Positions 38,567 to 61,089 of a stretch of DNA of 64,000 nt are shown here, one piece after another (positions within the stretch are counted from its first letter, which is position 1; the number at the start of each line of letters is the position of its first letter). The notes under the pieces were generated by a model that saw only the letters and a program-made list of their open reading frames with translations, did no database searches and had not been told where the DNA came from. The stretch covers positions 24,103,168 through 24,167,167 of the forward strand of contig NC_092569.1 in the NCBI RefSeq assembly GCF_037975245.1, written 5' to 3'. Source of the DNA: Apostichopus japonicus (taxonomy: Eukaryota > Echinodermata > Holothuroidea > Aspidochirotida > Stichopodidae). The translations under genes were made by a program, and so were the position numbers.

Positions 38567-41500
38567 TCACCCCTCAGCGCTCTTCTTTTGATCACCCTTC
38601 CTCCCTAGATGGTGGTATTTGTTTCTTACTTTCTTCTTCGTTGACTTCTTCTCTGGTATTTCTCCCGCCTCTTCTGCCATCTCTCTCTTCTTCTTTTTCC
38701 ACTCCTCTCCTTTCTTCCGGCTTTTGTTGAACTGTTTGTCCGTTATGAGTTTTGTGAGAGCATTCTGTTTATCTTTCTGGTTCCCTACAATAAGAGAAAG
38801 AAAAACAAACCGGGGGGGGGGGGTGAGTTAATACAGCACATACTAGAAAACAAAGATGCAAATTATGAAGTACAAACCACAGACAAGGGAATACAAGAGT
38901 TCATTCCTTCTCCAACTTTATATTTTTTTGTATTATAATAAGCAATGTTATTTTACTTATTACAAACATTTCCTTATTAGCCTGTGCTTTTTGATCATAG
39001 GATTTTAGCAATATTTTTCAAATACATGAAGGACAATATATTCCCTTTTCTTGGTGAGAGGGTGGTGGATGGGTACCATCCTCTGTTGGGCACACTCATT
39101 GACACTATGTATTATGTTGACAATGTCTGGCCTCCGTGGGGTAAACATTTCTGGGCAAAAGCATTTAAGTAAAGCCCTCAATAAGAAACTTAAAACTTGG
39201 GATGGGTCTCACCTTCTAGCATGGGTGCAAGTAGGGTTCCACTAGAGGTGATATATAGCTGTGAGTGACCAGAGGGGAAAATCTTCCTCTTTAGCAAAAA
39301 CTTCAGTTGCTCTGAAATGAAAAACACAAATTGAGATGGATAAAATTTGTAAAAATTGATGGGTGCTTTCTCTACAACCACTGCTTGTTGAGCATTTTTT
39401 GAAGCCTGCAGTACAAGCAGTTGTTGATTTATTATATTTTTATTATTGACCACAATGATCCACAGTGATTTGCGGAATCAAACGTTTGATATGGATGAAC
39501 ATAACTGGACCATGCCATCATACCGACATGAGAATGTACCCGATATTGCTGGATGAGCATGCAATATTGAGGAAATTGAAAACTTGTATACACCTCAGTA
39601 GTAAAATACAGGTGTACACTATACAATACTGGTGTACACAATATAATACAGGTGTACACAATATAATACAGGTGTACACAATATACTACAGGTGTACAAT
39701 ACAGTTGTAGCACAATACACCTCAGTAGCCCAATACACCTCTGTAGCACAATACACCTCTGTAGCACAATACACCTCCGTAGCACAATGCACCCCTGTAG
39801 CACAATGCACCTCTGTAGCACAATGCACCTCTGTAGCACAATACACCTCTTTAAGCACAATACACCTCTTTAGCACAATACACCTCTTTAGCACAATACA
39901 CCCCTGTAGCACAATACACCCCTGTAGCACAATACACCTCTGTAGCACAATACACCTCTGTAGCACAATACACCTCTGTAGCACAATACACCTCTGTAGC
40001 ACAATACACCTCTGTAGCACAATACACCTCTGTAGCACAATACACCTCTGTAGCACAATACACCTCTGTAGCACAATACACCTCTGTAGCACAATACACC
40101 TCTGTAGCACAATACACCTCTGTAGCACAATACACCTCTGTAGCACAATACACCTTTGTAGCACAATACACCTCTGTAGCACAATACACCCCTGTAGCAC
40201 AATACACCCCTGTAGCACAATACACCTCTGTAGCACAATACACCCCTGTAGCACAATATAATACAGGTGTACACAATATAATACAGGTGTACACAATATA
40301 CTACAGGTGTACAATACAGTTGTAGCACAATACACCTCAGAAGCACAATACAAGTGTATACGATCATAGACACTGCAACATCTGTACTACTACATAGCTG
40401 GAAGTGCATTGAAAACTAATGAGACTTTGGTGATGTAAAACCCGTCTTTTCAAAGCATCCAGGGGTACTGGTGGCAGTTACCGCCACAAATTTGTATGGT
40501 TTCATTAACGAGATTGGAAAATAACTACCGCAACAGTTAACCATCCTGTAAAAGATCGTCCAAGGAAACAGATAATTATATCAGAGCCCTGTAGGAACAC
40601 TAGTGCCTTACCCTTTAGTGGTAATATCAGGGGTGGATCAAGGATTTGAAAGAGCAGGGGGAAGTGGTCTTGGTGTCATTTAAGCTGCCTCCCATGAAGG
40701 GCATCTGAGGTTCTCCCCCAAGAAATATAGTAAACATCTCATATGTGAAATGGTGCATACTGAAGCATATTTAGGCCATAAATTAGGTCTATAATTAGGT
40801 CCACAGGGAAAGGAGTGGGTGGACGAGGGGGTGTTACCCTACAGTGGGGTAGGGTGTTAACTCCCCCCCCTCCCCCCGGAATCGTGCCTGTACATCTTTT
40901 AAGTACTATCATCAAAAAACCACAGAGGACAGAAAGAAACAACAATCACGCACCAATGCTATTGCTTGAACACCATAGGATTGAGATTTTTAGTAGCATT
41001 ACAAGCACCCAGCAGCTTAGTTCTGCTGGAGTGCTGGTGAGTTATCTTTCTCAAATTAACACCTAAGCTTGTCAATGTCATACATGATGATACAGGATAC
41101 CAACAAATATTGATACACACCATGGATTGAGACACTGTCATAGTTACGTGAGTTGTGGTGTTACCCCACTTCTATATTCACCTTTGTGTGTGAACATCAT
41201 ACTTGTTGATATGGGACACTATGAAACAACACTGTAATGCTATTGTACACACACACCCAAACAGGATTGAGACACTTGCGTAGCATAAATAGCCTCCCCT
41301 GTCCAGCAGCACCGATACCCAGGTGCGCTGGGCTTATTCTACTAATATATACATCTTTTTGTGCGATCAACACACATATTGATACAGGGTACTACAAAGC
41401 AACACTCCAAGGCTTTTGTACAGACACTCCATGATGGTAAACTTTCTCTTACGTTTGAACATTGTGAGTTTCATCCTTCTCATTTTCTGCTCGTGGCTAG

Positions 41501-44500
41501 TTCCAAGATCCTCCAATCTGTTTCCATGCTGTTAAGGTAAACAACTATGCTATGATAAAACCAATGACTATGGATGAATCAGGATCAATGACTATGCATG
41601 AATCATGATCAATGTCTATGCATGCATCATGATCAATGACTATGCATGCATCAGGATCAATGTCTATGCATGCATCATGATCAATGACTATGCATGAATC
41701 AGGATCAATGACTATGCATGAATCATGATCAATGTCTATGTATGAATCAGGATCAATGACTATGCATGAATCAGGATCAATGACTATGCATGAATAAGGA
41801 TCAATGATTGAAGGTGAACAGGGAACAATGCAAAAGGAAAAATAAAGGTAGCCAAGACCAAGTGAAGTTTTAACAACTTGAATAATTTATCTGGCATCGT
41901 ATAGCAAAATGCTCTACAAAATGGGCAAATTTCTACACCTATGCTGAGATGCTTTGTGTCAAAATTTTCTATTCTGAAGAATTTGAGATGTATATTACTC
42001 TGGTGCTTCATCTTTATAGTCAGCTTCTGACAGAAAATCATCAAATTATGGATTTGGGGTCACAGGCTTCACAGACAGTCAGCCCAGACAAAGTGAAGTC
42101 TTAACAACTTGAATAATTTTTCTGGCAAAATGCCATACAATATATGCAAATTTCTACACCAAAAACTGAGATGATGGGGTCACAAGTTTCTATTCTCTAG
42201 CAAGGAACAAATTGAGATGTCTATTACTCTGGTACTTCTTCTACATCTTCTGAGATAAAAATTATTCGAATTATGGATTTGTGGAGTCACATGCTTCAAA
42301 GACATTGTCATCAAATTAACATCATCTTGAATTTGAGGCAATGCAGCTCACCATGTTGATTTTTGTAAATATTTTGATGTTATATTTGACGTTTACAATC
42401 TATTTTCAGTAATACTTGTAAGGTTCAGATAAACTTGTAATCAGCTGCTTGAAATGTACTTAAATAACAAAACCATGAGAAAACATTTACAAAGGATACA
42501 CTTGATCTTCCTCTAGTTCAAGGTCCATCTCTTTAGCTGCTTGTTGAAACCACTCATTCTTATGTTTCTTCTTCTCGAATTGATGTGTTAGGGTATCGAT
42601 ATCCCGAGCCAACTCGACCCTGTCCGTCACTTCTCTGAGGTATTGGTGGTCCACTGGGAAGTTGACAATCTCCTCTGGCGGGATAAGATTTGGTACAGGT
42701 AAGGTAACACATAACAAGAGAAGACCACTTGTGAATAAAACAGTTCTAGAACCAATGGTTGAAGATTTTGTCCCAACCACAAATGCCACTCATATATTTC
42801 TATATATATACATGTATATATGGATTTTCCTAATTAATTACAATTTCAAATATATATATATTCAGGTGCCTTGGTCGTTTATTTCCATTTCATTGAACAG
42901 AGTCTGTTCACAGTATTTCTTTCGAGATCTGGCCTTGGTATTCACAAATGATTTCGAGTTGGTTACAGTAGCATCATGTTTTGGTCTCTAGAGTAAGGCA
43001 AAATATGCCACCAAAAACAGAACTAGTATTGTTCGATACAGGTGACAAACGCCTACAGTGGAATTACGACCTTCCTTACTGGTTTCCAGCCTCTGGACAT
43101 ACAATCAGTGTCCTAGTGGTTAGGGTGTCCGCATAAAAAAAGGGAGGCCCAGGTTCAAATCCCGATTGAGGCTTTTTTGAGTTTCCAACTCATTACAATT
43201 TCAAATATATAGATATATAGATAAAGATTTGAAGAGCTAGTAAAGTTTGTGCCTCAGACTTCCCCCATTCTTGCTAGGACCCATACAGTCAGCAAGCTAC
43301 ATTATCCTACATATTGGGTAACCAGGGGATCACAACCCAATTTAATATTGAAATAACACAAAAACAGCACAGTAGGAAAGGAATTCCAAGAGATATTTGA
43401 CCAATCTTTCGAAAACATATACGTAATTAACCATGGAAATGTAGCGGCAAAATTTGAGGAGAGAAAAGAAGAGAAATAAGAAAACTGGAAATGAGCAAAG
43501 ATATGTTCTCTATAACAGAATCTGAACCTTGAAGCCCAGATATCCATCAGGGCAGACTACTACTTAATAAACCCCCATAATGCATGGTTAATAATTTTGA
43601 TTTGATTACCTTTGTCAAGAGTCTTACAGACCCTCCGGTAGTAAGAGATCTCCTTTGTAGATAGAAGCAACAGACTCAGACCTTGTTTCTCTTGCCGAGC
43701 CGTTCGACCGCTCCTGTGGATGTAGATCTATGAACGACGGCAGACGAGACAAAAAACAAAACAAATTTAAAAAAAACGATACACAAAACTGTTTAAAATC
43801 ACCATAAAAAGAAGGAAACCCTACACTAGATGATATTAAAAGATGTCACCCATTGATAAGAAGTTTACTGTTTGCTAGCTTTAGTATGCTTATAGTGTGA
43901 TTCATCTCCAAATATCTTTACCGTACGTTCGATTCCTGGGTCTAAATTCCGTATGGATGATTCCTGGGTCTAAGTTTAACTTTGAGCAGCCTTTCGTATT
44001 GACTTGATGACGTGCTGGTTGTAACTTTACTCTACCGTTTAAGTAAAGTGAAGTAAATTTAACCTAAGATGTAACCTGTTACTTGAGGTCACCATAATGA
44101 ATACCAGGAATGACTTAAGTTAGCAACAATTCTCATTGAAATGATTAAAATTTCACATCAATTTTGATTTTATGTATTTTATGACAATAGGTTAAGGACA
44201 GGGAATTAGCGGACTGTTATAACCGATTAGTTATGTCTAACGATTGAGTGTCGACCGAATATGTGTCAACATTTCATAGCTCTGGTGAGAATGATATGAG
44301 GTAAGGTATCAGTCATGTCTGTATCCAACAATTACTCCTGTAAAAGCAGTGACCTTTATACCTCGGTTGTCCTTGGAACTTGATAGTGAATCACATGTTG
44401 GACATTTGGTATGTCCAGACCCCTGGAGGCTACATCTGTGGCTAGTAACAAACCATTAGGATTCTCTGTAAATCTGTAAGACAAACAAATAAATAAATCA

Positions 44501-47500
44501 ATAAACAAACAAACAACCAAACAAAATAAAAAATACGTTAATAAATCAATCGATAAACAACAACAAAACAAACGACAAAATAAATCAATCAATAAATCAA
44601 TTGATAAACAAACAAACAAAATAAACAAACTAATCAATCAATAACACAATAAACAAACAACCAAACAGAATTAATCAATAAATAAATCAGTAAAAGTGGT
44701 CCATTCAGAAATATATTTCACAATTTTCAAATAAACATAAAATAAACAACAACGGAGTTTTGCTTTGTGTGCTACTTGACACATAACCCCGACATAACAG
44801 AAAGGTTTAAAAACAACTTGTTTACTTTATCTCTAATTTGGTTTTAAAGAGGATAAACCTAAAAAATATGTCAATCGACTGAAACGTTCCTTTTTCATTC
44901 AAAAGGTGATGTAGTTGTTCCCCGGTTCTAGAATTATTTGCCATACACTTTGTCCATTGATTTGTTGCCAGCCCTTAGTCCTGTTTTATATAAATTGCTT
45001 GAACTCTTTGGTATGTGTCATTTTGGTTTCTTTAATTGGTGAGGGCAATGGCTCCTTGGCCGGACTTAATTGCTACTGCACTGCTATAAAACCTACTGTC
45101 CAAAACCACAACAGAGCGAGAGATGAAACACGAGTATCATTTGATCACACCATTTCTCATTGTTAGTCCATTACACCAACAAGGCAACATAAACAGATAA
45201 TTGGTTGACCCCCCCTTCACCCCCTTCCCCATGTACCTAGAAGATTTATGCCTTTGTTTAAGGCTAAATATACAAGGGCTTCAACAGTCTACTCCAATTG
45301 TACAAAATATTGTGTCGCACGACGAAAGGATAGTTTGTAATTTGGAAGTCATTAAAAAGTGTCATTTTATTCGACTGACTCGACCGGTAAAGTTTTCCTA
45401 CATGGTCGAGTTTGCCATCACCCAGACTATGATAGATGCCTACACGGGATGCAGCTGGAAATAAGCTTTATTACCGTTCAAGGTTCTTGAGCCTCTGTCT
45501 CTGGTGCATGGAGGAATGCAGCGGGAACGGTGACCGTTGAAGTATGGTGAGGATGGAGACCAGGCGTCTGATACAATCGATGCTGTTACAGAAGACTAGA
45601 GTACGGCCGGGGTATTGCATCAGGAAGTAGAACAGGTAGATATCCTAACACCACAGGATCACAAAAATGGGACAAAAGTTGGTGAAAATTTTGATTGTCT
45701 TTTAATCTATAATTCCTATCTGGTTATTAGCTACTGTGTTGTACCCTGACTGACCCCAAAACAATGCGACTTTGTTCCGCTTTCATTAACGAAGCCGGAC
45801 AAGCAAAATGAGGCAACGATATTCTGGTGACAAACTTCAATGGATGCATGTATACATATTGCTTTCAGAATGTTCAGTTCTGAATGATAATATTAGTTTA
45901 TCTTTTCATAGAAAAACATTGCAGTGACCAAAGTCACACGAAAAACCACTGGCAGTGTCTCCCCTCGAGCATGAAGTGAACTGTTTCAGCTCTGTATACT
46001 ACACATACATGGGTAATCAATTGCAAAATGAAGTGACTCCCCACACGTTTTCATCAGAGATAATATATTCACTCAAGTCGTTGACTGACTTGGCCAGGAA
46101 AATCACCTGGTACAACTAGACACGATTGAAACATTTACATGACTTGGTACACACTCTGTACAGTTTCTTCACAGTTCTTGTGCTAGACGTAAGCCGTGGC
46201 TTGGCCAGACTCGGTGACGAATCGAGCGGCAAAACTGTTGAGAACTTATGCAGACCTTACCTTCTGTTCAACGGAACAAAATATCTTGGACTCCAGCAAT
46301 GAGGCCACGGTTCCTTCTTTCTGGGTAAGGTCTACAATCTTCGCATCCCGCTTGATTCCAATCTTGTCCATCAAAGATCCTGAAAAACAACAAAACAAAA
46401 TGAAACGAAAAAAGAAATAACATGAAGACCAAGAGATATAATCTGGCTTGTCATTTTGACTAGTGACAATGATATGACTGACTGGACGGTCACCAGTGTA
46501 GGTATCTTAAAAGCTTGACAGCCTTGGGAGGTGCTTCGCTTGAAATGATAACAAGCAATTACATTATTGATGTGACACGGTATACACTAGCATTAAGCAA
46601 ACAATCCATTTAATAGATTTCCAGCTCAGGTTAGACTCCATTTAACAGAGTGGAGATGGTTTCAAGTGGGTAAAACTGTAACTTATTCCTGAACAAAACG
46701 GTCCATTCTCTATTGATCGGTCATCCACGGATTAAACTATTGAACTCCCTGGTATGAGATTCTGTTCCACCAACTGCTGTGGGGGTTTTGTCCCCTAGAT
46801 TGTGCACCGTCAGGCAGTTAAGATATATACCACCGGGATATATGATTTGTATTAGAAATGCCACATTAAATAATGATATATATATATACTGCACACACAA
46901 ATAAGCCCCCTACTTGTCTTTTCAATGCTTCATTAACCAGGATATTCACCTAATATTTGGCCCTGTGATCTATCCTTCCAATTGAGTAGCTTTCTGAGCG
47001 GACCGTGATGGACGAGGGACAGAGTAGCTGAGAAAACCAGAGTCTGTCGTTGAGCTTTCTGCTGTGAGCTTGAAAGACGAAATAAAAACAAGAAAATGAT
47101 GGAATGAACCATTTTCATTGAGGAAGGGAAAAGTTACAGAGTGGCAAAGTTACATACAATATGTTACAACTTATAGTTCGTTAGAGTTAGATACAATATG
47201 CTACAACTTATAGCTCGGCGGAGAATATACGATATGTTACAACTCATAGCTCCGCGGAGTTATATACTTTATGCTACAACTTATAGCTCGGTGAAATTAT
47301 ATACAATATGCTACACCTTATAGCTCGTCAGAGTTATATACAATATATTACAACTTTTAGCTCCGCGGAATATGTTACAACTTATAGCTTGGTGGAGTTA
47401 TATACAATATGACTTATAGCTCGTCAGAGTTAGATACAATATGTTACATTTTATAGCTCCGCGGAGTTATATACAATATACTACAACTTATAGCTCGGTG

Positions 47501-50500
47501 GAGTTATATACCATATGCTACAACTTATAGCTCGACGGAGTTAGATACAATATGCTACCACTTATAGCTCCGCAGAATTATAAACAATATCCTAACTTCC
47601 TGCTTGGCGGAGTTATTTACATGTGTGATTGCTATTAGCCCATATCTATTACATTTGCCTTCCGCACTGCAATTGGGATAGATGCAACCTTTTATAAGAG
47701 ACATAATTAAGCCTGCTATAACATGACATGTAGTAAAATCTTCAACTACTCTTCAAATTTTTAATACTTATTAAATACTTAAGCGAACAATAAAAACAAA
47801 TTGATTAAAAAAACAGTATTTAATAGTAAGTCCTGAAATATGCTGCCTAAATAATTCTTTATCGTACCAGTTCAGGATGCCCAGTATCTCAGTGAGTTCC
47901 GCAAAATGCTTCTTTTCTACCATTCTGTCTGCTTCGTCAATGACCAAACATTTGATGCTGGAGAGGGTCAGGAGATGGGGTTCCTCCTACCAAGAAACAA
48001 AGATTCATTATTCTTTATGCAACACTATGCAATAGAATAATCATATACAGAAAGCGACATGCACGGAAGAATTTTTTTCTAGTATGACATCCCAAAATGG
48101 ACAAATCCCCCCCCCCCCCACCAGTTACACCATCCCTTCTCCAACCATGTTGATATGTACTATAGTATTGACAATTAATGATACTGTATATGTGACACAA
48201 ACATAATGATAAAGCTTACCAGTTTGATATACATTATTAACATTAAAATCTAAATATGATGAAGTTTACCCATAAAACCACCAACTGACTTACTGTACCT
48301 GTCTGTCTTAGAAACACAAGAATTTAAAGGGGCATCTATAAACCAAAATCAAATAATACATAGTTACATAGGGGAGATACTCTACACCCACCTGTTGATA
48401 AAGCTCCCAAATAATACATAGTTACATAGGGGAGATACTCTACACCCACCTGTTGATAAAGCTCCCATATAATACACAAAGGAGAGATACTCTTCACCCA
48501 CCTGTTGATAAGGCTCCCATATAATACATAGTTACAAAGGGGAGATACTCTACACCCACCTGTTGATAAAGCTCCCATATAATGCAGTGTTACATAGGGG
48601 AGAAACTCTACACCCACCTGTTGATAAGGCTCCCATATAATACATAGTTACATAGGGGAGATACTCTTCACCCACCTGTTGATAAAGCTCCCATATTCTT
48701 CCCGGAGTTCCCACCACAATCTCTGGCTTTCTCTTCAAGATTCTTGATTGCTTCTCCAAGGACATGCCTCCAACCACCACAGCAACCTAGAACGGAAAAG
48801 CAAGGTCAAGATAATTATAAAGCAACAAATGGCAAGATATTTAAAAAACAAAACAAAAGCAATGACCAGCTTCCCGAGCACTGTCAATACCATGTTTTAA
48901 AATCTGAAAATATTGTTTCAAGATCTCAAATATTCTATGGACAGGGATTGGCTTGACTTTCCTATTAAACATTTTTTCACCTCTTCATTTCCTCCTCAAA
49001 AATTTAAGGTATAAAAAGGTTTCTTGTCCTCCATATTCTAAGAAATTTTCAACATTCCAAAAAGAGTCAAACCCCCCACACCCCACTCCCCCCTTTCAGT
49101 AGGATGATCAAATGTTGCCGGTCAGCTTGTCACCGAGCAGCTACTTCTACGATGAGCTGAATCATTTGAAATAAACATGTTTTTAACATGTTTTTAATTT
49201 GTTTAATTTCACAAACCTGAACATCGGTATACTTTGCAGCAGCCATGATATGATTCTTAATTTGAACTGCCAATTCTCTGGTCGGTGTCAGTATGAGAGC
49301 CATCAGGCCGCTACTAGTGTCCTGTCCGGCACTCAAAGCATCATCGGGATTAGAATTATCGCCTGATACAACCCTCTCCACTTCTGCATCATTTTTCACA
49401 TCAGCTTTCTTGTTGGTTTTCACTGCAGCAGCACCAGAATCAGGCATCTCGACAGATTCTCCTTCGTTAAGGCTCTGGTTTGCATCTAAACCGAGAGAAA
49501 TCTCTGCATCGCACGCCTTGGATTTTTTTGACTGGTCGGCTATTGTTCCGTCTGTCCGTTTGTCTATGAGTTTGTCGGACCCTTCGGTCGAGGGTTTCGC
49601 GACTTTACCGCTGTAACCCTTCCCTCTTCTTGCCAAATACATTTCTAAAAGAGGAATGCCGAATGCTAGTGTCTTTCCACTGCCCTGTGTATGACAGCAA
49701 AAGATGGAAACGAATAGAAATAAAATAACTACACAAGATACTGAAAATGAATTATCAATATTGGCTAATCAACAGTACTCTACACTGTACACATTTAAAA
49801 ATACCTTTTTTGCAATTTTCTTAATTGCAGCACTATTTTCGGAAGAGTTTGCACGGCATGGTGACCACTTCGAGTAGATATAAACAGAGGGCTCTATAAA
49901 ATTATACATTTTACGGTCGGGTAGATGTACAGTGTTGGATAACACAATCAGAACGGTGAAGTCATATCGGGAAACAGTTTTTAATAAAGGTTAGCAGTGT
50001 GCATATGCTTGGCTAGTACACTAGTACAGTGCAGTAGAGGCAGACCTGTACGAGATGTAACCAAGGGGGGGGGGTGGTGGTGGGGGGGGGACAGTCATTG
50101 TGTCATTTCTCTTAAATAAATCCTAGAACTAATATATCCATGTAAGGAATGTAACAAAGCCTGGAACAGCTCTTTAACCAATTCATACATAATTAAGGGA
50201 AATTTAATATCGCCGACAACTCACAGTTTCGGCTCCACCCACGACATCGTTTCTCTCTTCTATGGCTGCTGTTAGGCATTCAGCTTGTATTGGGGTTGGT
50301 TTGGTGAAGCCCAGGTCCTTAAGAGCCTTCAAAACAAGGTCAGGCACTGGGAGGTCATCCCATGCGGACATATTTACTGTATAGGAAAAAAAAGCGGAAA
50401 CATTGAACAAGATGCTAGGAGAAGAATTCAAGTCAAGGATTACCAGCAAAGTCCTCAAGCTGACCAGAAAGGAACAATTTACTCCACCCTAATGGCTTGT

Positions 50501-53500
50501 TACACATCTCCAACTTTACAATACACATTTTGTCATAACAGACATTTAACAAAAGGTCCTTGCCTTGTTTTGTTGATTACCTGAAAATTAAATCAGCATT
50601 AAATCAGCATTTCAAAACAGAAAGGAAACACAAGATTGTTTCTATATAAATAACCTTCTTTCGGTAGAAGCAAAGACCATACAAACTTGCTTGGCAGGAA
50701 CTTTTGGAAAAACAATTTGTTACATATATATTCAAGTATCCTGTATGTACAGTAAAATGGTAATTTGGTAACACCAGTCCACTGAGGTGTCCAGTATTCA
50801 AAATGGTATCACAAAAATTGTGGACAATTGCTGCTAAACTTAAGTATCATGAATGCAGCATTAACAGTGAGTCCAAATATTTGCTTCTGCATATCTGTCT
50901 TCTAACTCCAGTCGGTCAACTGGGTACCGGTTCATTACAAACTACGCATCCAACTGAAGAACAAGCTAGGCATCTACTATGAGCATACATAAGCCTAAAG
51001 TTACTATGTTTAAGCAATGCAGGCCTTCAGTCATGTACACATTTATAAACTTTCAATAACGGTGCATTTTAAACCTGTGAAATCATTTACTCTGCGGTAA
51101 CATTAACTACTTTTATCCTAAACTGCTTTTTCAAAAGAAACCAAATACAATGATTTCTTCCAATGAATAGTGGTGATACCCATTGTGTAATTATGGACCA
51201 ATCACATGTAGCTTGATTCTTTCCATCATGGAAAAGATCAGTTCAACTTCTTTGGGGACTGTTCCACTAATTTCAACATAGGGATGGTCGAAGTACTAAT
51301 GCCCAAGAGTACAAAGGTCAAGATTTGCTAGTGTGCTAGCATGCAATGCAGGTAGAGATAGCTTAGACTGCACATTACAGCACACTTTACATATATGAAA
51401 AGGTAAGCAAACTTAGTTGATGAAAACTTTCTCAGGCGGGTATAGTTAACAAACTTGCACAAAAGTTTACACTAAAACACAAATCAATTATCAAAGGGAA
51501 TATCACCAAAATGGTGAAATAACGGACGAATTACAGATGAATTTTTTTGCTTCCCTTTCGTTACCTTTGAATGAAAGAGAAAGAAATGGCCAACGCTGTT
51601 AGTGATGTTTTGGTCATTTGGTGAAGAATTAAAAGGAGAAATTACTTACCCGGTTCTTCCTTCTTTTCAGCCATTTTCCTCTCTTTCCTTTTCTGTATAA
51701 TTTCTTTGTAAATTTCACGTCCAGATTTGCGCCTTCTGGTGGCGGTTGATTGTTTATGAGACTTTCCGAGACTCAAAGCTACACGCTTTCGTTTCTTCTT
51801 TGGGGGTTGCTCATTCACGAGCTTCCGCTTCTTTTCCTTCTTCTGCTTCTCACATTTCTTAGCATCACCATACAGCTGAAAGGAAGAGAGATTAACGCAG
51901 TTACAGTAGTTATCATAAAGTAGTTTTATATGAGTGAAGGAAGTGTTGACGTGGTAGTGTATAGCGTTGCGCGGGATCCCGGTAGTCAAGTGAATCCCGG
52001 TATCCCGATCCCGGTATTGACTAGTCTTGATCACAGTGCAATGTGTAACTACTATTGGTATTGGGAAAACAACCAGTATTACAATCGTTTCGGTATCATT
52101 CCCGGAAATCCTGGACATAATAACAATATCTACGTGTTACTGAAATAAAGAAAAGAAAATATGTTTATTTCTGGTTTCTGTGTTCTTAGTTTGAATAATA
52201 TCTGATCAATTTACGTACTGGCCTAGACCTATATTAACGAATCCACTTTTCACGTAGTATTTTGGACCTAGGCTACACCAAATATTGAACGTTACTTGGG
52301 CTCAGCATGTTACAGGACCTCAAAGTTATTCTGAAATTTTTGTTATTTATTCTTCCTTCGAACGATGATTGTGAAGGTTCCCATGTACAAAATCTTACCC
52401 TTATGCATTTCACCTCATTTTGTCATAATCATTATAACGATTTAATAAATTTTGAGCCGAAACCACAGGGAGTATATCCAGTTTAAACCCAACTTCGCAC
52501 GGGACTGTATATTATCATAGCCTAGGGTGCAGTACTGGTACACACAGTGCAGTGTGGTACTTGAGATTTGATGCTGTAATGAAATGGATTCATTTATTAA
52601 TGCAGGGGGTCCCACAATGTCATTTATAGTTATCTTTCACTACTTTTTAATTTTTAAGAACTTTTTTACGAACAATTGATATTGTACGTATTGAAAGTAT
52701 ATTTTCTGGAGTAAACAACAGCCGATTAACGATATAAATAAATTTGTACTATTCTTTTGTATGTAGTTTATAATCCCGTATTTACGTAGCCCCTATGTTA
52801 CATTCTTATTGTCTGAAGTTACAAACATGTGGTGACTTGTTGATAGTTAAAAACTTTTGAACTTGAAGGGGTTGCCCTATTCTAATATCATGGAATAGCG
52901 GGGAACTCCCAGTTCTGTTTGGGTACGGATAACAAGTTTAATCCATGTGCGAACATGTTTATCTATTATCGTATGTCGAGTATGAATGAAGGATGGTGTG
53001 GGTTGCTTTTTTCCAAGGTTTGTGCTTTTCTTTTTGGAAGTGTATATTAAAAATCAAAGGCCCTTATATAGCGTGTTATATTATTTTTAACTTTTTTTAT
53101 AACCGTGCGTGTAAGAGTATGTACATAGCCTAGGCCATGCATGACATTGACAGTCTCGTAACTAAGTGCTTTGAACCATAGATGAAAGTTGAGGAAAATC
53201 CTGGTTGTAGTAAAGATACCAGGATTCATGTTGCAACACTACTGGTTGTGTGAAATCCGACTACCACACAACGCTAGTAGTTTATGCTCTACTTAGGCTT
53301 ACTTAAGATTACTTAGTAAGTTAGTGTTATTCCAAGAAGAGATCACTACACAATTAATGTCACTGGAATCCCTAACATTTGCCAACCTTTCAGCAATGAT
53401 GAACTCGACGCCAACCTATTATCAAATGGTATAGTCCAAAATCAGACAGACCGACAAGAAGCAGGACTTGATCTGAAATTACTACTAGTACTCTCAAGAG

Positions 53501-54215
53501 GAGAGAAAATACTCTGCTCCATGTCTGACACCAAAGAAATATTTTACTACGGCCTATTATTACACTAGGACTCGGAGTAGGAAGGAATACTCCATGTCAC
53601 ATGGTTTAAAGTTGTTCTTACCACCCGACTACAACATTCAGTAGACAAATACAAAATACCCCTAGCCCTCTCTTTCGAACTCTTTGTGGAATACCAGCCG
53701 CTGATGATTGGGAGTGATTCTGCTCAATTGCAGAATACCCGGCAACACTCGAATCTCACAGATTATAAATGTGACTAGAAAACCCTATAATAACGTAGTG
53801 CCGTTGCTGACTTGAGGGGTATCCTGCAATTGCTCCCTTGATCCAAATTAGGAGTAAGGTAATGTTACACGTACAGTATAGCTGTACGAGTAGCGCCACA
53901 CTACACTTAACTAGCTACAGTATGCTGTAACTAGTTTCTGCATGTGGGCCTAACCATACTAACGAGTAACGTTAGGTGTAACCTAATATAGCATAGGCCT
54001 AACGTTACAGGCTACTACACATGGGAAAACTTGCATCGTTGTACCTTACTGACATCGAAGTTCGTCAGTTCCTCAAGCCCAGAAAAACCTGAAAAATCTC
54101 CATCAATGAATATATTTGGATCAACTTCAACTTTCTTCCATTCTCCAACTTCATCAAAATTGATGACTTTCCCCTTTCTCTTCTTTGCACGTTTGACCTC
54201 TGTGGAGGCAGCCAT
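38567..54215 (-). CDS. DDX24: DDX24-like DEAD-box RNA helicase (fourteen exons, about 783 aa)
   Basis: Exons in transcript order: 54215-54045, 51875-51650, 50376-50225, 49684-49217, 48786-48676, 47986-47868, 47068-46950, 46379-46261, 45644-45475, 44473-44362, 43727-43610, 42674-42502, 41528-41453, 38784-38567. Borders are GT-AG and all phases join. The N-terminus has [14 protein letters not shown], typical of DDX24. A Lys-rich nuclear segment follows, then the Q motif GFTKPTPIQ and motif I AETGSGKT (about 181-188, split by intron 3). Other motifs: Ia PTRELA (317-322), Ib TPGR (366-369), DEAD (393-396), SAT (429-431), [10 protein letters not shown] (563-572) and HRSGRTAR (593-600). All catalytic motifs are intact. 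A charged insert of about 110 residues between motifs I and Ia is also a DDX24 trait. Human DDX24 is 859 residues. Known role: nucleolar helicase for 60S assembly (yeast Mak5). The exon 12 acceptor (CCGCCAG) has a weak pyrimidine tract and is chosen by phase and homology. Confidence 0.93.
39606..40330. repeat. 18-bp minisatellite, about 30 units, with duplicated flanks (DDX24 intron 13)
   Basis: Units of TGTAGCACAATACACCTC fill about 39712-40258. Both ends carry the same different repeat, ATAATACAGGTGTACACA (about 39606-39700 and 40255-40310), followed by CAATACAGTTGTAGCACAATACACC. The border itself is therefore duplicated. The 18-base unit is a multiple of three and lacks stops in several frames, which produces frames of up to 244 codons on both strands. 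These are not genes. Confidence 0.9.
40628..40890 (+). mobile_element. Candidate hAT-like element (DDX24 intron 13)
   Basis: Begins CAGGGGTGGATCAAGGATTTG, close to the CAGTGATGGATCAAGGATTT at 5553, and ends near a C-run and GGAATCGTGCCTG at 40890. Flanking 8-mers (GGTAATAT, TACATCTT) do not match, so the right border is uncertain. Confidence 0.4.
41560..41815. repeat. 24-bp tandem repeat, about ten units (DDX24 intron 12)
   Basis: Unit CTATGCATGAATCAGGATCA plus ATGA, with variants GCATCATGATC and TGTCTATG. The repeats sit 30 bp upstream (in transcript order, downstream) of exon 13. Confidence 0.85.
41849..42312. repeat. About 230-bp tandem duplication (DDX24 intron 12)
   Basis: Two units, 41849-42081 and 42083-42312. 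They share AAGTGAAGT(T/C)TTAACAACT, ATTTCTACACC, GAGATGT(A/C)TATTACTCTGGT and CAAATTATGGATTT-like phrases. Diverged, so older than the exact arrays nearby. Confidence 0.7.
43106..43225 (+). mobile_element. tRNA-derived SINE-like fragment (DDX24 intron 11)
   Basis: Contains an A-box-like TAGTGGTTAGGGTG (43114-43127) and a B-box GGTTCAAATCC (43152-43162) at tRNA spacing. The anticodon region, GCATAAAAAAAGGG, forms no proper stem, and the acceptor ends do not pair, so this is not a working tRNA. A tail of short (ATAG)n units follows at 43204-43222. This is the plan of a SINE with a tRNA head, short body and microsatellite tail. Confidence 0.6.
44479..44712. repeat. (AAAC/AAAT)n-rich low-complexity tract (DDX24 intron 9)
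   Basis: About 230 bases of mixed AAAC, AAAT, AATC and GATA units directly behind the exon 10 acceptor. As read in the transcript it is a T-rich stretch that supplies the polypyrimidine context for exon 10. Confidence 0.75.
47120..47618. repeat. About 38-bp tandem repeat with CTCCGCGGAG palindromes (DDX24 intron 6)
   Basis: Roughly a dozen degenerate units of ACAATATGCTACAACTTATA followed by GCTC(C/G)GCGGAGTTATAT. Several units hold the self-complementary CTCCGCGGAG inside TATAGCTCCGCGGAGTTATA, which can form a small hairpin. Others have decayed to GCTCGGTGGAG or GCTCGTCAGAG. Confidence 0.85.
48350..48696 (-). repeat. 58-bp minisatellite that repeats the end of DDX24 exon 5 and its splice donor
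   Basis: Six tandem units, five of them intronic. The sixth overlaps the last 21 bases of exon 5 (48676-48696). On the minus strand each unit contains GGGAGCTTTATCAACAG joined to GTGGGTG, the coding end of exon 5 plus the 5' splice site. Copies of the donor lie at 48618, 48560, 48502, 48450 and 48392, all with the same CAG/GTGGGTG context; spacing is 58, 58, 58, 52 and 58. The true donor is set at 48676 because only this keeps the helicase frame with exon 6. Confidence 0.85.
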
Positions 54216-54348
54216 TTCTATTTTGTTTTCGATGCACGCTTTGACGGAACGCCGTTCTAGAACAATTCGACACCGCTTGCTGTGTATACTGTAATGTATA
54301 TACGTACGGGCAAACACGGACATGTCTTTCGTAAACTTCATTTCAGTT

Positions 54349-54701
54349 CAGTCTCGTAGGAAGGTACTTTTTTGAGTGGGGGGGGGGAGGGCTGAAGACT
54401 GATGGACGGCCTGGGGGAGGGGTCTAAGGGGAGGGAATTTGTTTTGCATTTCCAAGTGGCCTTAGACGCAATTTGGTGCAATATAGCACACTTCAACACC
54501 CACTCCATTTTGTAAATAATGCATTTTCACCTGGCCTTAGATGCAATTTGGTGCTCCAAATGAGATTTTTTTCTCATTTGGAAATGAAAAATGGATTTTC
54601 TGACTTGCGAAGCGGGGGGCGGAATGATACTTCCGCCCCCATATTTTTCACTGGGGGGGGGGAGGCTGGCGCCCCCTAGCCCCCCGGTTCCTACGCCCTT
54701 G
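54349..54701 (+). mobile_element. hAT-type MITE, family 1, left copy of composite
   Basis: A 353-bp copy starting CAGTCTCGTAGGAAGG (two changes from CAGTGGCGTAGGAAGG) and ending TTCCTACGCCCTTG. The internal order is the same as in the 1046 copy, with a short deletion in the G-rich GGTGTCCCC part. Left flank TTTCAGTT, right flank TATCCAGG: it has no target duplication of its own. Confidence 0.88.
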
Positions 54702-55849
54702 TATCCAGGCTCCTGCGGGTTAATTAGAACTTTAAGGTTGGCTAATACAGACAATAGCAATTTGAAGGAACGCATGAAGAGGAAAACAAGCAGCACACAA
54801 CTGCTTTAAACGAGTGATGGAAACTACTTAGGAAAGTAATGGGAGGTTGCCCCAGACCTGGCGAACCCACCCTACCGGGTTAGTATTTATATCCGCAAGG
54901 TAGGCCTATATATGTTTCTATATCATTTTTGCCATATAATCAGTGAAGTTCATGTGGCCAGATTAAATCAGATATAAAGCCAGATATGGGATTTCGGTAT
55001 ATGACGGCTCCAGGCCGGTACAGAGTGCGTTCCCCCTCCCCCATTTGTTCTACCACAATGTGTAAAACCTTCATATGCTGCGGGACACTGTGTGTCGAGG
55101 GAGGGGGGGGGGGCAAGCCTGATCGGTCCTTACATAGCCAAGAATAGTTATTTGAAATAAACGCATGCAGTAAGAATAAACTTAGAAAGAGCAAATTATA
55201 GGCAGGATCATGTAAGCGTTTACAAAACAATAAAAACCTGTAAGGAGAGGGAAGCGCACTTTACTGGCTGCCCAAGCCCTGACAATACTATGGCACGAGG
55301 ATTGTGCCCCCGGCGTTTTGGCTGACCCATTCCATAACAACTCCCTGATCTGAGCTTGTGTTGAACCTTGGAGCTATAGCTCCATGGTTGAACTGTGCGT
55401 AGTATGTACCTTGTAATATCGTACCGGTTATAACTTAACTTGGTCGTTTCAAACAACCGTTCATAAAATGAGTCCAATTTCCTCGCAAATGTACGATAGT
55501 GTCCAAAATGTCACAAAACTGGTACACAACAAATTAATTTCTTCTGTGGTTAGGCTGTAATACTTTTCAAAGGCCGAAAATATGTAAAAATATGGTGAAA
55601 ATATGAACAAGTTCTGTTGATTTCCTACTACCACGTAAATATTCATGAAATTTTAACGGAAATCAGCCAATTCATTCATATCATGGATTGAAAACTAAAA
55701 ATATCATCTGTTGTCAAGACAAAAACACTTTCTTTGTCAAAATGTCCTTTAGTTTGTCCACAAAATGTGAGAAAGAAAATTGTAAGACTAAAACGTTACT
55801 TGTGAGATTTGCTTTGTACAAATTGCGCTTACAATCTCGCTTTTAGCGT
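54702..55849. other. DNA inside the composite, upstream of histone H1
   Basis: No coding signal. It contains a palindrome, TTGGAGCTATAGCTCCATGG (55366-55385), whose half recurs at 13404-13435, and a 12-base G-run near 55102. Confidence 0.5.
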
Positions 55850-55994
55850 AGACCCAATCACAACGCAGGATTTGGTATATTCTCTGTCACGTCCGTCAAC
55901 TCAAATATAGATGGCGCAATACGCGATTATCTAGCAAATTTTGCGATTATCTGTCAACTTCTGAACATCAGAAACGTTACTTTACGTATTCAAT
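55850..55994 (+). promoter_or_regulatory. Probable histone H1 promoter and 5' UTR
   Basis: CCAATCA at 55854-55860, about 45 bases before an AAATATAGATGG TATA-like site at 55903-55914, which is about 85 bases before the ATG. This CCAAT-then-TATA spacing fits histone H1 promoters. I do not see a clear AAACACA box. The 5' UTR would be short and intronless. Confidence 0.5.
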
Positions 55995-56558
55995 ATGGCA
56001 ACCGAAACGAAGAAAGCAAAGAAGTCCAAGCCTACTGGCCCAACAACCCTCGATCTTGTCGTCAAGGCTATTGCAGCTCTGAATGATACAAAGGGATCGT
56101 CAGGAGTGGCCATCAAGAAGCAAATCAAAGCTACAGGTGTAGAGAGGAGCTCTGTCTTAGTGAACAAGGCCCTCAAAAGAGGCGTTGCAACTGGAGTCCT
56201 CAAGCAAGTTAAAGGTACTGGAGCCAGTGGTACTTTCAAGCTCGACACTGCAAAAGCTAAGAAAGCCGAGCAGGAAAAGGCCAAGAAGCAGAAGGCAATA
56301 CAGAGGAAGAAGGACTTGTTAGAAAAGCAGAAGAAGAAAAGGGCTGAGGCAAAGGCCAAGAAAGACGCCAAAAAGAAGGCTGCAAAAAAGGTCAAGAAAC
56401 CTGCAGCAAAGAAAGCAGTGAAGAAGAAGTCAGCAGCCAAGCCCAAGAAGGCGGTAAAGCCAAAGAAGCCAGCAGCTAAGAAGCCAACCAAAAAGGCTGC
56501 ACCAAAGAAGAAGGTTGTAAAGAAACCAGCCAAGAAGGTAGCACCCAAAAAGAAGTAG
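55995..56558 (+). CDS. Linker histone H1, intronless, 187 aa
   Basis: A single uninterrupted frame from ATG (context CAATATGG) to TAG. A short Lys-rich N-tail (1-14) is followed by a winged-helix globular domain at about 15-84, with TLDLVVKAIAALND, SSGVAIKKQIKATG and KRGVATGVLKQVKGTGASGT. The GTGASGTFKL ending is the H1/H5 signature. The C-tail (85-187) is almost pure Lys/Ala/Pro with AAKK and PKKA repeats, as expected for nucleosome-linker DNA binding. The product binds the DNA entry/exit of nucleosomes and compacts chromatin. Lack of introns and the stem-loop 54 bases after the stop mark it as a replication-dependent type. The gene stands alone here, without core histone genes, and inside a unit bounded by two MITEs. 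Opposite-strand frames over it are shadows. Confidence 0.95.
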   Translation: MATETKKAKKSKPTGPTTLDLVVKAIAALNDTKGSSGVAIKKQIKATGVERSSVLVNKALKRGVATGVLKQVKGTGASGTFKLDTAKAKKAEQEKAKKQKAIQRKKDLLEKQKKKRAEAKAKKDAKKKAAKKVKKPAAKKAVKKKSAAKPKKAVKPKKPAAKKPTKKAAPKKKVVKKPAKKVAPKKK

Positions 56559-56614
56559 GCCCTGTACCTAAATCTTACAAGGAACAACTTGGGACTACTT
56601 TGTTCAAATTCAAC

Positions 56615-56630
56615 GGCTCTTTTAAGGGCC
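56615..56630 (+). terminator. Histone mRNA 3' stem-loop
   Basis: GGCTCT-TTTA-AGGGCC: a 6-bp stem (one T-G wobble) and 4-base loop followed by ACCA, preceded by CAA. This matches the SLBP-binding stem-loop of replication-dependent histone mRNAs, which replaces the poly(A) tail. Confidence 0.9.
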
Positions 56631-56639
56631 ACCAAATAT

Positions 56640-56655
56640 ACCAGAAAGAGAAGCT
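56640..56655 (+). promoter_or_regulatory. Probable histone downstream element (U7 snRNA site)
   Basis: ACCAGAAAGAGAAGC, starting about 10 bases after the stem-loop. The purine-rich AGAAAGAG core fits the CAAGAAAGA-type element that pairs with U7 snRNA. Cleavage would be expected between it and the stem-loop. Confidence 0.7.
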
Positions 56656-56925
56656 TTTTTGCCTCCATAAACATGCATTTGTGTCTTGAGTCTTTTCTAC
56701 TATTTCCTTAAATTCGTGTTGTATACTGAACACAACAAAATATTCATTATAATAGCGTTCTGTAGGCCTAACAAAGTAACAGTAACAGTAAGAACTGTTA
56801 TGCTAGGTGGTGTAATTCTCGACTGTATTTCATGCAACAAGTTACATAGTACATCAGACATGTATTCTAGCATTCGTAGTACTTTTGAAGATGGGAGTTG
56901 AAGCTTTGGATTTCGAAAACAAGGA

Positions 56926-57048
56926 AGAAAAATTGTAAATTTCTTTCAGAGCAGATATATTGTTTTAACGAAATATAACAAATTTAATTTCAATAGCTTA
57001 TGTCTCAGAAATAAAAGAAGAAAAGGAATATGACTCAAACTAGATGAA
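56926..57048 (+). repeat. Duplicated 123-bp segment, copy 1 (inside composite)
   Basis: Runs from AGAAAAATTGTAAATTTC to CTCAAACTAGATGAA and is nearly identical to 58158-58282. It contains an AATAAA-like CAGAAATAAAAGAAG. Confidence 0.85.
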
Positions 57049-57204
57049 ACTAAAGCAACCACGGTTAAATCCAAGTCATCGGTCTTAGATCTGTGTACAT
57101 TCAATAAGATCAGACTGTTATATCTCTTTGTGACATTGTGCTTCTCAGATATAGTTCTTAAGAAGACGCTGTGTGGAGAACGATATTTCAGCCATCAGTT
57201 ATAT

Positions 57205-57205
57205 A

Positions 57206-57244
<39 letters not shown>

Positions 57245-57249
57245 CTATA

Positions 57250-57302
<53 letters not shown>

Positions 57303-57320
57303 CTATATGATATATATATG
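57205..57320. repeat. (TA)n microsatellite with TAGGCTATATGA spacers
   Basis: Three (TA)n runs separated by two identical TAGGCTATATGA spacers. Confidence 0.9.
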
Positions 57321-57597
57321 AATGAGTTTTGCAAGTTCTGAAAGTTCAAAGAGATATGGGATGCCATTTTAAAAATAGCATGTACAGACTTTATTTGCCA
57401 GTATAGGGCACGTACATTTACTATTTTGGAGAACCCCCCAGCTCGATCCTACCCCCTGAATATAATCAATAGGCTCCCCCAACCAAACCGACAGTTTCAG
57501 TCATTGAAAAAAATGCCAATTTCTATGGCAGTAAATTTACTGTGGCGGAAACTAGTTCTAAACCTAAAAAAGAAACAAAAACATATCCAGTGGCGTA

Positions 57598-57931
57598 GGA
57601 AGGTACTTTTTAGTGGGGGGGCTGGAGACTGATGGACGGCCTGGGGGAGGGGTCTAAGGGGAGGAGGTGTCCCCTCCCCTTTGGAATTGTTTTGTATTTC
57701 CAGGTGGCCTCAGATGCAATTTGGTGCAATATAGCACACTTCAACACCCACTCCATTTTGTCAATAATTTTGCATTTTCACCTGGCCTTAGATGCAATTT
57801 GGTGCTCCAAATGAGATTTTTTTCTCATTTGGAAATTGAAAAAGGGCTTTTCTGACTTGCGAAGCGGGGGCGGAATGATTCCTCCCCCCTCCATATTTTT
57901 CACTGGGGGGGGGGCGGTTCCTACGCCCTTG
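57598..57931 (+). mobile_element. hAT-type MITE, family 1, right copy of composite
   Basis: A 334-bp copy starting CAGTGGCGTAGGAAGG and ending TTCCTACGCCCTTG, in the same orientation as the copy at 54349. The CTGGCGCC part near its right end is deleted. Left flank AACATATC, right flank TTTCAGTT: it has no target duplication of its own. Confidence 0.88.
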
Positions 57932-58119
57932 TTTCAGTTCATATATGTTGCTACTCGCACATTGGCTACATGTACTTTATTGTGTTATATCTGATAACAA
58001 AGAACTATTATTCAAAGGATAAACGATAACAATTTAGTGGAATTTTGCCTTAACGAATAAGAAATGTATTATACTTTTTCTATGAAGAACCTGCGTTTTC
58101 CGGTACCCAGGAAAATAGA

Positions 58120-58282
58120 AAAATTGTAAATTTCTTTCAGAGCAGATATCCAGGAAAATAGAAAAATTGTAAATTTCTTTCAGAGCAGATATATTGTTTT
58201 AACGGAATATAACAAATTTAATTTCAATAGCTTATGTCTCAGAAATAAAAGAAGAAGAGGAATATGACTCAAACTAGATGAA
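58120..58282 (+). repeat. Duplicated segment, copy 2 (outside composite)
   Basis: Matches 56926-57048 with few changes. Its first 42 bases (AGAAAAATTGTAAATTTC..GCAGATATCC) are themselves doubled in tandem. It lies about 190 bp beyond the right edge of the composite unit. Confidence 0.85.
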
Positions 58283-60572
58283 GGGGTGTATTGGTGAATT
58301 CATTTATAAATTTAGTGCTATCCTTATTACAAGGTACAATCATTTTTAGAACCTTGAACCTTATCTATAAAGGTAGTATTCTATTAACCTTCTCAGCTTT
58401 GTTGGTGCGATTTTTGTTGTACTGGAGTACCGGTAACATATGTTGTATTGTATGTATGTCCTTTCGTGTGTATGTCAGAGAAAGTGTGACAACTTCAAAG
58501 CAAAATACAGCTGCCCAGAGAACATTAACCTCTTCTTGTTTTTTTTTTCCAGCTGTACGTTCTGTTTGCCCTAACAGGGGAGGGTTTCAAATGTGTCTTT
58601 TTTCCTAACATTGATTCAAGCATTTCTTCATCTATGACTATTGATTTTAATTGGTGTCCATTCATCACATGTACAGTAATAACAGCTGCAAAGGATGACA
58701 CAACGAGAGTATAGTAGCCTTAATTAGTTTTATATTTACACACGCAAAGAGATGAAGCAGTGGTTGATGAACTCTCTACTGATATAATTTATATTTTTCT
58801 GTTCATAAATATTTGTTTCTACTTACAGTAAACCGCGTAGAATAATATGATTCCATTTACTTAAACGAGGATGATTTGGCAAAATTGAAAAAGAAATAAT
58901 ATGTGACATCTATAACATGCACAGTAATTACTTAACTAATTAATGAAGCCTACAATAGTAGCACAGACAAAGGTCATTGGTTTTGGCGAATTATTGCATA
59001 TAAAACAAACTTCTGAAGAACACAAAATTCTGCGGTACAGCCACTAATTAACAATTAAAACTACACTCTTAATTCCAAAGGGTTAGAAATTTGAGAGTGA
59101 TATTTTGAGAGTTGCCATGCACAGTTATTACTCTTTTGACGGATTATTACGGTCTTCTCCTGAGATTGCATATAAGTTTAAAGAGTGATTCGAAGTTAAA
59201 AAGTGAAACCACTTACTAGATTCAGATCGAGTTAAATCGACATGTGAAGTAATCCTTCAACTAGAACTGTTTTTGCATGCAAATACGCGGTATTGTAGTG
59301 CTCATGGAGTGCTTGCAGTATTAGAAAGAACTTTCGGTTGTTCCTGGTGTTACTTTTTAGGCGGACAATACACCAAAGAGTATAGTCATGTTGTAGGTAC
59401 ATACAAAGTGAGGGCGCTTGTGCATGGGCGCCGTGATCTAGAGTTCTTCAGTATAAAGGAACTCTATCGTGATCGACAGGCTCAGAATAAGTTGCCTACG
59501 CAACTAGCCTCTGAAACTGCAATGTACAGAGACGATATGAAACCTTAAGTTTCAACGTCCAGTCATGTAGGTATATCGTTCACTTAGCCAGTTATGCCAA
59601 TATTGTAGCGCGCACGCGCACTACAATAATAAGAGTGACGCTTTCTCTCCCAAAGTTCACTATGCAATTTGTGCAACACAGAGATTTGTATATAGGATTA
59701 AACAATTAATAACTCCTTAATTCTAGAATGAACTTTGTTACATGGCTTGGTGATTGACACAAAGTTATCATCCAAAACAAAATGTAACATTATAAAAGTA
59801 GCAGGTTTAGAAGGTAACAACTAAATAAATATAAATATATATGTAAAAGGTAATCACGTCTGTGAAAATCATTCTCCCTGCGGTTCAGGATCATGTAGAA
59901 CATGGTAGTTGTGTACAGAGAAACTTCCAAGTAAAATCAATGTACACAAATGAATAAATCAACATTCTATCAAGCTATATATTTTTTTGTCAACTAGCTA
60001 ATTACTTAAAGAGCAGTAAATGAAAGTATTTATACAGATTGATCCTGGTGTGTGGGGAAGGCATACTATCAGCAGATGCCTGACGTTTGTATGCGTAATC
60101 TCTATGGAAATTTCCCCAAGTTCCCTTTTTCACTTTAAAGAAAACTTGAGCACGAGTGTGTCGCATTGTAGCAACTTATATTATTACTGTACAACGTATA
60201 CTCTTCCAAACATTTAAAACAATATTTCAACAATTAAATAAGCTATGGAGACCTTCATATGAGTATAGATTGGTAAACAAAATGGCGACTGATGTAAGAT
60301 CACTGTTGAACGTTGTCTCCCATATATTTTCATTTTTAAGCCTTCCAGAGGGTTCAACGTGTTTTTTCTGTATCATAAAGAGCCGCCGAATATAGAACTG
60401 ATCAACAGATTGGACTTTTTATCGATGTCAACCACGGGACTATGGATACGTTATCTGGATTTTTTTATGTTTTTTATTCTCAATGCATCTCAATTTGTAC
60501 TTTTGAACATCACCGTCTTCAAGTGTTATTTTGGTGAGTGGCTTTCTTTTCAATACTATAAAACTACCTTAA
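58283..60572. other. Intergenic, no supported gene
   Basis: Open frames of 91-105 codons (58291-58608, 59273-59548) show no family that I recognise and no splice context. AT-rich otherwise. Confidence 0.45.
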
Positions 60573-61089
60573 ATGGGTCAATTGAAAGTTTGTTCTTTTC
60601 AACACTAGAGGGGTAAGGGATAAAAGTAAGCGTAGGAAACCTTTTTGTATTTTTTTCACAGACATAAATATGATATTATGTTTTTGCAGGAAACCCATTC
60701 AACCTCAAATGAGTTTAGTTTTTGGACTAAAGATTGGGGCGGTAACATTTGTTTTTTTTTGGGTATGAATAAGAGTAAAGAGGCGTTGCTATTTTATCTA
60801 ACCCACGTTTTTCATTATCACCAATTATTGAGCTAAGAGATAATGACGGTCGTTGTATTTTTTTCTAATTATAGATATTGATGGATTGCTTGTCCGCCTC
60901 GTCAATGTATATGGTCCTAATTTGGATAGTGCTATTTATTTTTCGTATCTAGGTGATCACCTTAAAAACAATAGCCACGACTTAATAATTTGGGGTCAGG
61001 GTGACTTCAATTTTGTGTGGAATATCGATATTGACAAGACTGAGGGTTTGTCTCGTACTAATTTTAAAAACCCGCTCGGAGGTTATTAG
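60573..61089 (+). pseudogene. LINE endonuclease (APE-type) remnant, frameshifted
   Basis: Starts with ATG at 60573 followed by a beta strand and NTRG. After an early frameshift it reads KYDIMFLQETHS at about 60664-60699. Another break follows. Then LVRLVNVYGPN (about 60890-60925) and IIWGQGDFNFVW (about 60985-61020) appear, before the frame stops at 61087. QETH, the NVYGPN strand and GDFN are the ordered active-site landmarks of L1/Tx1-type APE endonucleases. The C-terminal SDH motif and the whole reverse transcriptase are missing. At least three frame disruptions make it dead. Confidence 0.8.

Follow-up and report, generated by a model that had tools for sequence, protein, structure and literature searches.

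How did a complete histone gene come to stand between two short, non-coding transposable elements that have only one target-site duplication between them? This question is raised by a 3.58-kb block on chromosome 9 (C9) of the sea cucumber Apostichopus japonicus, in which a histone H1 gene is flanked by two miniature inverted-repeat transposable elements (MITEs) of the hAT superfamily. We analyzed a window of 64 kb around this block (C9:24103168-24167167; positions given below without a contig or locus are those of the window) and searched the genome, comprising 671.58 Mb in 35 contigs. The published chromosome-level assembly of this species is 671.6 Mb in size, with 34 scaffolds and 23 chromosomes (PMC10344927). 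The composite, whose arrangement is directly visible, is probably a natural hAT macrotransposon, that is, a segment carried by the outer ends of two linked elements, and a hAT transposase would presumably have moved it.

Structure of the composite

MITE A and MITE B flank the intact H1 gene in direct orientation, and the outermost 8-mers of the composite are identical (Table 1). The inner flanks differ, with TATCCAGG (54702-54709) beside MITE A and AACATATC beside MITE B. Neither element has a duplication of its own within 6 bases of its termini, the best 8-mer pairs matching at 6/8 and 5/8 positions with unmatched offsets. A single target duplication is found at the outer ends of the composite and none at the inner ends, and the outer left and right ends are compatible, both MITEs being complete and in direct orientation; this is the arrangement of a macrotransposon. 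The left terminus of MITE A reads CAGTCTCG in place of CAGTGGCG, while its right terminus is CCTACGCCCTTG. Direct reading thus bore out an initial annotation of this region, made from the sequence alone, which had described two same-orientation MITEs around H1 that lacked their own 8-bp duplications and had identical outer 8-mers. The same annotation had put the odds of a chance match at about 1 in 65,000; we obtained a similar value, 4.8e-5, for two independent targets sharing an 8-mer, computed from the base composition at each site in 17 target 8-mers, TTTCAGTT among them.

Other members of the MITE family retain their duplications. The remaining two copies in the window, at 1046 and 21160, have perfect 8-bp duplications, as had been reported, and an own target duplication was present in 18/18 other independent, uninterrupted copies with both termini (14 independent full-length insertions and 4 further ones), of which 16 were exact and two matched at 7/8 (L003 and L059, the right copy of the latter being shifted by 3 bases). 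Duplicated insertions were counted once (L021/L022/L025/L026 as one, and the C6 pair L068/L069 as one), and short fragments, two copies with nested insertions (L033 and L034) and one with an unrecognisable right end (L072) were omitted. The sample is skewed towards copies that resemble A or B, or whose loci had been retrieved for another purpose. The omitted copy L033 still displays TATGTAGA/TATGCAGA at its flanks.

Table 1. Positions in the window of the composite, its parts and the adjoining patch source
Feature	Position	Strand	Basis
Left outer target-site duplication, TTTCAGTT	54341..54348		sequence
MITE A, hAT type, 353 bp, without own target duplication	54349..54701	+	sequence
TATCCA junction bases adjoining MITE A, non-collinear with the C1 source	54702..54707		comparison with C1a
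H1 block, copy of C1-type locus (minus strand of L031, from 6322 to 2553)	54708..57587	+	genome comparison
Histone H1 gene, intronless, 187 amino acids plus stop	55995..56558	+	open reading frame, Pfam
Histone 3' stem-loop region, RF00032, 32.6 bits (gathering score 34)	56610..56656	+	lenient search
123-bp patch within H1 block	56926..57048	+	121/123 identical to 58160-58282
AACATATC, terminal bases of H1 block; native in C1a (AAACATATC|TAAACAAATG)	57580..57587		comparison with C1a
MITE B, 344 bp, oriented as A, without own target duplication	57588..57931	+	sequence
Right outer target-site duplication, TTTCAGTT	57932..57939		sequence
Probable source of patch, beyond composite	58160..58282	+	121/123 identity

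A source locus on chromosome 1

A genome search with the inner block revealed a near-complete relative on the minus strand of chromosome 1 (C1a; C1:5502553-5506322, in L031), as well as a weaker relative, C1b (in L029), which is inverted and lies ~15 kb from C1a between the nearest ends. The MITE family had no match in the 10 kb around C1a, nor in the 10 kb around C1b. At the right border, C9 follows C1a through AACATATC and then continues with the exact first base of MITE B, where C1a continues with TAAACAAATG; at the left border, the agreement starts at 54708, six bases in from the end of MITE A. Beyond this left border, C1a and C1b match each other for ~1 kb further upstream at 72% identity, and because they have this additional sequence in common, the C9 copy is the truncated, derived one. 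No BLAST match of >=60 bases was found outside the composite when 53000-61000 was compared with L029-L037, and a joint move of H1 and its chromosome 9 flanks from C1 was rejected on this ground. The cargo is foreign to its site on C9 and has its source elsewhere, at C1a.

The C1 block is without MITEs of this family and its homology to C9 ends at or within 7 bases of the borders, which supports the earlier proposal that H1 moved as a 3.58-kb MITE-bounded block. The claim that a complete gene was relocated with the block is likewise supported, with the refinement that the gene was copied rather than removed. A search for the source locus by its two inner flanks had been proposed, and the right one, AACATATC, is indeed native on C1, whereas the left one corresponds only loosely, since TATCCAG, which spans the left-junction bases, is present 184 and 400 bp upstream in C1a and not at the homologous base. 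This hints weakly that a small deletion could account for the left-junction bases (4% of shuffles contain TATCCAG, and the region is repetitive).

A short insert, TACGAGGTGTATCATATCATATCATATC, is seen just upstream of H1 in both C1 copies (L031 near 5070-5125, minus strand; L029 near 6228-6274). On both sides of it stand 9-bp direct repeats, which agree within each copy and differ between copies (AAGGCGGAA, AGATTGAAA).

A patch probably copied from the outside flank

The H1 block on C9 is interrupted by a 123-bp patch and by a longer AT microsatellite. The patch is 98% identical to a stretch that lies ~220 bp outside the composite; no third copy was found among the matches listed, and C1a and C1b are without the patch. 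Since C1a and C1b have other sequence in common at this place, the simplest reading is that the patch was copied inwards from the flank once the block was in place, and its 2 differences in 123 bases, a small count, suggest that this event is younger than the arrival. The patch also ties the interior of the block to its outside flank, which argues against misassembly. A 43-bp tandem duplication (58107-58192) is found at the edge of the sequence matching the patch.

The histone H1 gene

The H1 gene consists of one intact, intronless open reading frame whose product matches the Pfam family Linker_histone (PF00538; E value 3.3e-21). Taking C1b as the outgroup and excluding one three-way codon, we counted 7 synonymous changes on the C9 branch against 2 that are nonsynonymous, and the probability of <=2/9 nonsynonymous changes under no selection is 0.001-0.004. 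The replacements are F55L, which is inside the Pfam domain match, and V102I, and the pairwise ratio of nonsynonymous to synonymous divergence (dN/dS) between C9 and C1a is 0.07. Judged by these substitutions, H1 on C9 looks constrained, although the branch may reach back to before the move. To all appearance the gene has stayed functional, and a locus closely related to its source is still present in the genome. A search for the histone 3' stem-loop gave no match at the gathering score in the window, while the lenient search returned the region listed in Table 1 with an E value of 5e-8, and the stem-loop sequence is identical in C9, C1a and C1b.

H1 genes of the C9 type are also found on C1, C13, C21, C11 and C17. 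A tandem histone array at C7:255394-433086 contains 70/79 H1 matches, many of them spaced by ~2.0 kb and most on a single strand; the H1 of this array is only about 53% identical to the dispersed type of the window.

The MITE family and the timing of the copy

Members of the family end in CAGTGGCGTAGG and CCTACGCCCTTG, forming short terminal inverted repeats, and have a length of about 343-381 bp, in keeping with hAT MITEs. Copy number is high, with 2,152 exact genome matches to one 24-mer (2,130) or its variant (22). The distance from the majority consensus is 1.5-4.1% for 14 reference MITEs, 4.9% for MITE A and 3.1% for MITE B. MITE A and MITE B are 94% identical (5.9% apart over 320 aligned sites) with different private changes, and they are not mutual closest relatives among the copies compared. 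Domains of hAT dimerisation are plentiful in the genome, with at least 150 Dimer_Tnp_hAT matches listed (150/633 candidates scored).

Noncoding divergence between C9 and C1a is 114/1817 (6.3%), or about 3.1% per branch, with five segments ranging from 4.2 to 10.4%. Set beside the distances of the MITEs from their consensus, this places the copying of H1 within the activity period of the family. From about 55450 through the coding part, C9, C1a and C1b are about equally close, and C9 is nearer to C1b in 2/3 windows of 55602-56051; an exchange between C1a and C1b would explain this mixed history of the middle part.

Several further repeats were noted. In L035 (4848-5210, at C1:15.40 Mb), a further member of the family, flanked by its own TACGTGAA duplication, lies beside or within a decayed H1 promoter fragment. 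The same-family MITEs of L033 (7384-8809) and L034 (7005-8222) are broken near base 60 by ~1 kb; the L033 insert begins with CAGTGGCGG, as though another hAT element were nested there, and the two inserts do not match one another. The window also contains inverted copies of a second repeat family (6662-7022 and 24392-24753), which are 84-97% alike, and CAGGGGCGTATCCAGG ends at 24354 and 17999 that are also hAT-like in look.

The landing site

A frame that starts from an ATG at 54215 on the minus strand is open across the 60 lysine-rich codons translated, and a DEAD-box helicase exon lies further along the same strand. The open frames at 54036-54215 (-), 51645-52136 (-) and 49133-49768 (-), of which only the last, the helicase exon, has a Pfam match, may belong to one DEAD-box helicase gene of a DDX24-like pattern. 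Because only 125 bases separate the apparent helicase ATG from the left duplication of the composite, H1 is placed head to head with the apparent helicase gene, in its promoter region. The contiguous empty target, GTAAACTTCATTTCAGTTCATATATG, was not found elsewhere in this assembly with up to 3 mismatches, as expected for a single-copy site that is now filled. Minisatellites are present elsewhere in the window (39601-40339, 22716-23329, 41514-41873 and 47080-47615), comprising an array of 18-bp units, 15-16-bp units in two opposite-strand blocks, and 24-bp and 37-bp units.

Discussion

If the composite is a macrotransposon, its history would have started on a chromosome with a C1-type H1 locus in which two direct-orientation MITEs of the hAT family flanked H1, the right one at AACATATC. 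Bringing together the left end of MITE A and the right end of MITE B, a hAT transposase would have excised the 3.58-kb segment; its insertion into chromosome 9 at TTTCAGTT would have left the 8-bp target duplicated at the outer ends and nowhere else. The C1 copy would have been kept via the homologue or the sister chromatid, and a short stretch of the chromosome 9 flank would later have been copied into the block. The junction of AACATATC with MITE B is exact to the base, and for this reason every route that we can envisage calls for a donor in which H1 lay between two MITEs.

The same end product could arise by homologous recombination. Here, a resident chromosome 9 MITE with TTTCAGTT on both sides would have undergone break repair from a MITE-H1-MITE donor, or taken up a circle of H1 and a MITE, leaving two chimeric MITEs. 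That the two elements are each ~350 bp long, 94% identical and have a rare variant in common speaks for this route, and ectopic exchange between non-autonomous Galileo copies, with target duplications swapped, is described for Drosophila (PMC2775673). This route nonetheless needs an extra insertion, namely the resident MITE, in addition to a donor already carrying two MITEs with AACATATC abutting MITE B exactly. Furthermore, elements of ~350 bp that differ by 5-6% recombine poorly, and chimerism could not be shown: among the copies compared, neither A nor B has the other as its nearest relative. Transposition and recombination had both been put forward initially; the transposase route takes fewer events, because recombination also calls for the resident MITE and for an exchange between short, diverged elements, but the choice between the two is not proven. 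We consider recombination unlikely, while giving it serious weight. A very improbable history is that an unrelated segmental duplication brought H1 and that the two MITEs inserted separately later, lost their own duplications and matched at their outer flanks by coincidence. H1 genes of the C9 type do occur on several other contigs, and the lack of any match to this MITE in 5/9 10-kb regions compared (L029, L030, L031, L032 and L037) indicates that H1 copies can disperse without it; such a history would, however, demand two insertions at two breakpoints, the loss of both duplications when 0/18 other copies have lost theirs, and a match with a chance of 4.8e-5.

Capture of H1 by one hAT element during gap repair, followed by duplication of that element (a Pack-type origin), has a published counterpart in the capture of gene fragments by maize Ds, including one compound case (PMC3260210). 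It is highly doubtful for the C9 block, where each MITE is full length, keeps its two termini and carries private changes unlike those of the other, and where AACATATC is the native C1a neighbour of the end of MITE B; two complete, different MITEs are not expected from a single captured element. MITEs are repeats, and an assembly error could in principle have fused two unrelated MITE-bearing regions, a concern already voiced in the initial annotation. We regard this as scarcely credible, because the patch matches sequence just outside the block and no third place among the matches listed, because the C9 copy is 6.3% from C1a in noncoding DNA, and because the HiFi reads of the published assembly, with a mean of 14.7 kb at 64x, far exceed 3.6 kb (PMC10344927). 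A tandem duplication of a MITE-bearing segment was rejected, as the inner flanks differ and neither equals TTTCAGTT, and so was a reciprocal exchange of duplications in the Galileo pattern, as three different 8-mers are present. A local-hop origin of MITE B from A, prompted by a rare C-to-A variant in both, may also be considered; the C6 pair L068/L069 is one duplicated insertion.

Several observations weigh against a macrotransposon. The 6-7 bases at the left junction are non-collinear with C1a, C1a has no excision footprint at AACATATC, and a donor with both MITEs was not found: among the matches listed, the non-repetitive downstream flank of C1a has no second place, and the upstream flank next to the H1 block matches only C1b. 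The short insert upstream of H1 that is common to C1a and C1b is missing on C9, which complicates the placing of C1a as the sister of C9, unless the C1 pair exchanged sequence. MITE A and MITE B have in common the rare C-to-A variant (22/2,152 24-mers), which homogenisation by recombination could explain, together with one or two further departures from the consensus; L071 and L073, which also bear the variant, are not closest to A or B (6/20 other variant copies sampled). The outer terminus of MITE A, now CAGTCTCG, must have mutated after any transposition. An autonomous element with the ends of the MITE family was not identified, the surroundings of the listed Dimer_Tnp_hAT matches not having been read.

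The macrotransposons formed by Ac/Ds in maize were reportedly described by Huang and Dooner (2008) and Wang et al. (2022). They belong, like the C9 elements, to the hAT superfamily, and DNA that lies between two linked elements is carried along by their outer ends; Ac macrotransposons excise and reinsert with 8-bp target duplications, such duplications stand at the endpoints of rearrangements, and the original copy can stay (PMC9910405). In contrast to the maize cases, the C9 composite has short MITEs at both ends, an animal host and one complete, constrained-looking gene, and its event is old and deduced from sequence rather than observed. In the compound element Ds-l4-483 of maize, two hAT elements of the same family likewise bracket foreign DNA, with a copy of the target duplication at the end and a cargo that includes transcribed sequence from another chromosome (PMC3260210). 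Its first element, however, has a flanking duplication, its second is truncated and its cargo is partly a retrotransposon fragment, whereas the C9 MITEs are without own duplications and the gene is complete. Displaced target duplications between two non-autonomous copies also betray rearrangement in GalileoN at Drosophila inversion breakpoints, where the copies are in opposite orientation and duplications are exchanged with an inversion; on C9 the orientation is direct, a block is inserted and three different 8-mers are found (PMC2775673). Mar of Drosophila is described, like the C9 family, as a short non-coding MITE of the hAT superfamily (PMC3517528), and two P-element copies moving en bloc have been proposed as the origin of a mosquito MITE (PMC1562414). 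In the literature surveyed, macrotransposition is described mainly for maize Ac/Ds, and our search met no instance in animals in which a pair of MITEs carries a complete gene, although published cases may still exist. By analogy, the C9 arrangement would be of the Ac/Ds macrotransposon type, and what is new would be the two MITEs, the animal host and the complete, constrained-looking gene.

We therefore return to the macrotransposon and lean towards the view that a direct-orientation pair of hAT MITEs acted as a true composite transposon and brought a complete animal gene, including promoter and 3' processing signals, to another chromosome, and that purifying selection has acted on it there since. 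If this is true, the thousands of MITE copies would constantly offer chance pairs able to mobilise genes, and transposition by MITE pairs could account for part of the scatter of single histone genes. The finding also offers a simple genome-wide test, namely a search for same-family pairs that have an outer duplication and are without inner ones. As a roughly datable animal case with an intact, apparently constrained gene and an identifiable source locus, the C9 composite would demonstrate that very small elements without coding sequence are able to relocate whole working genes.

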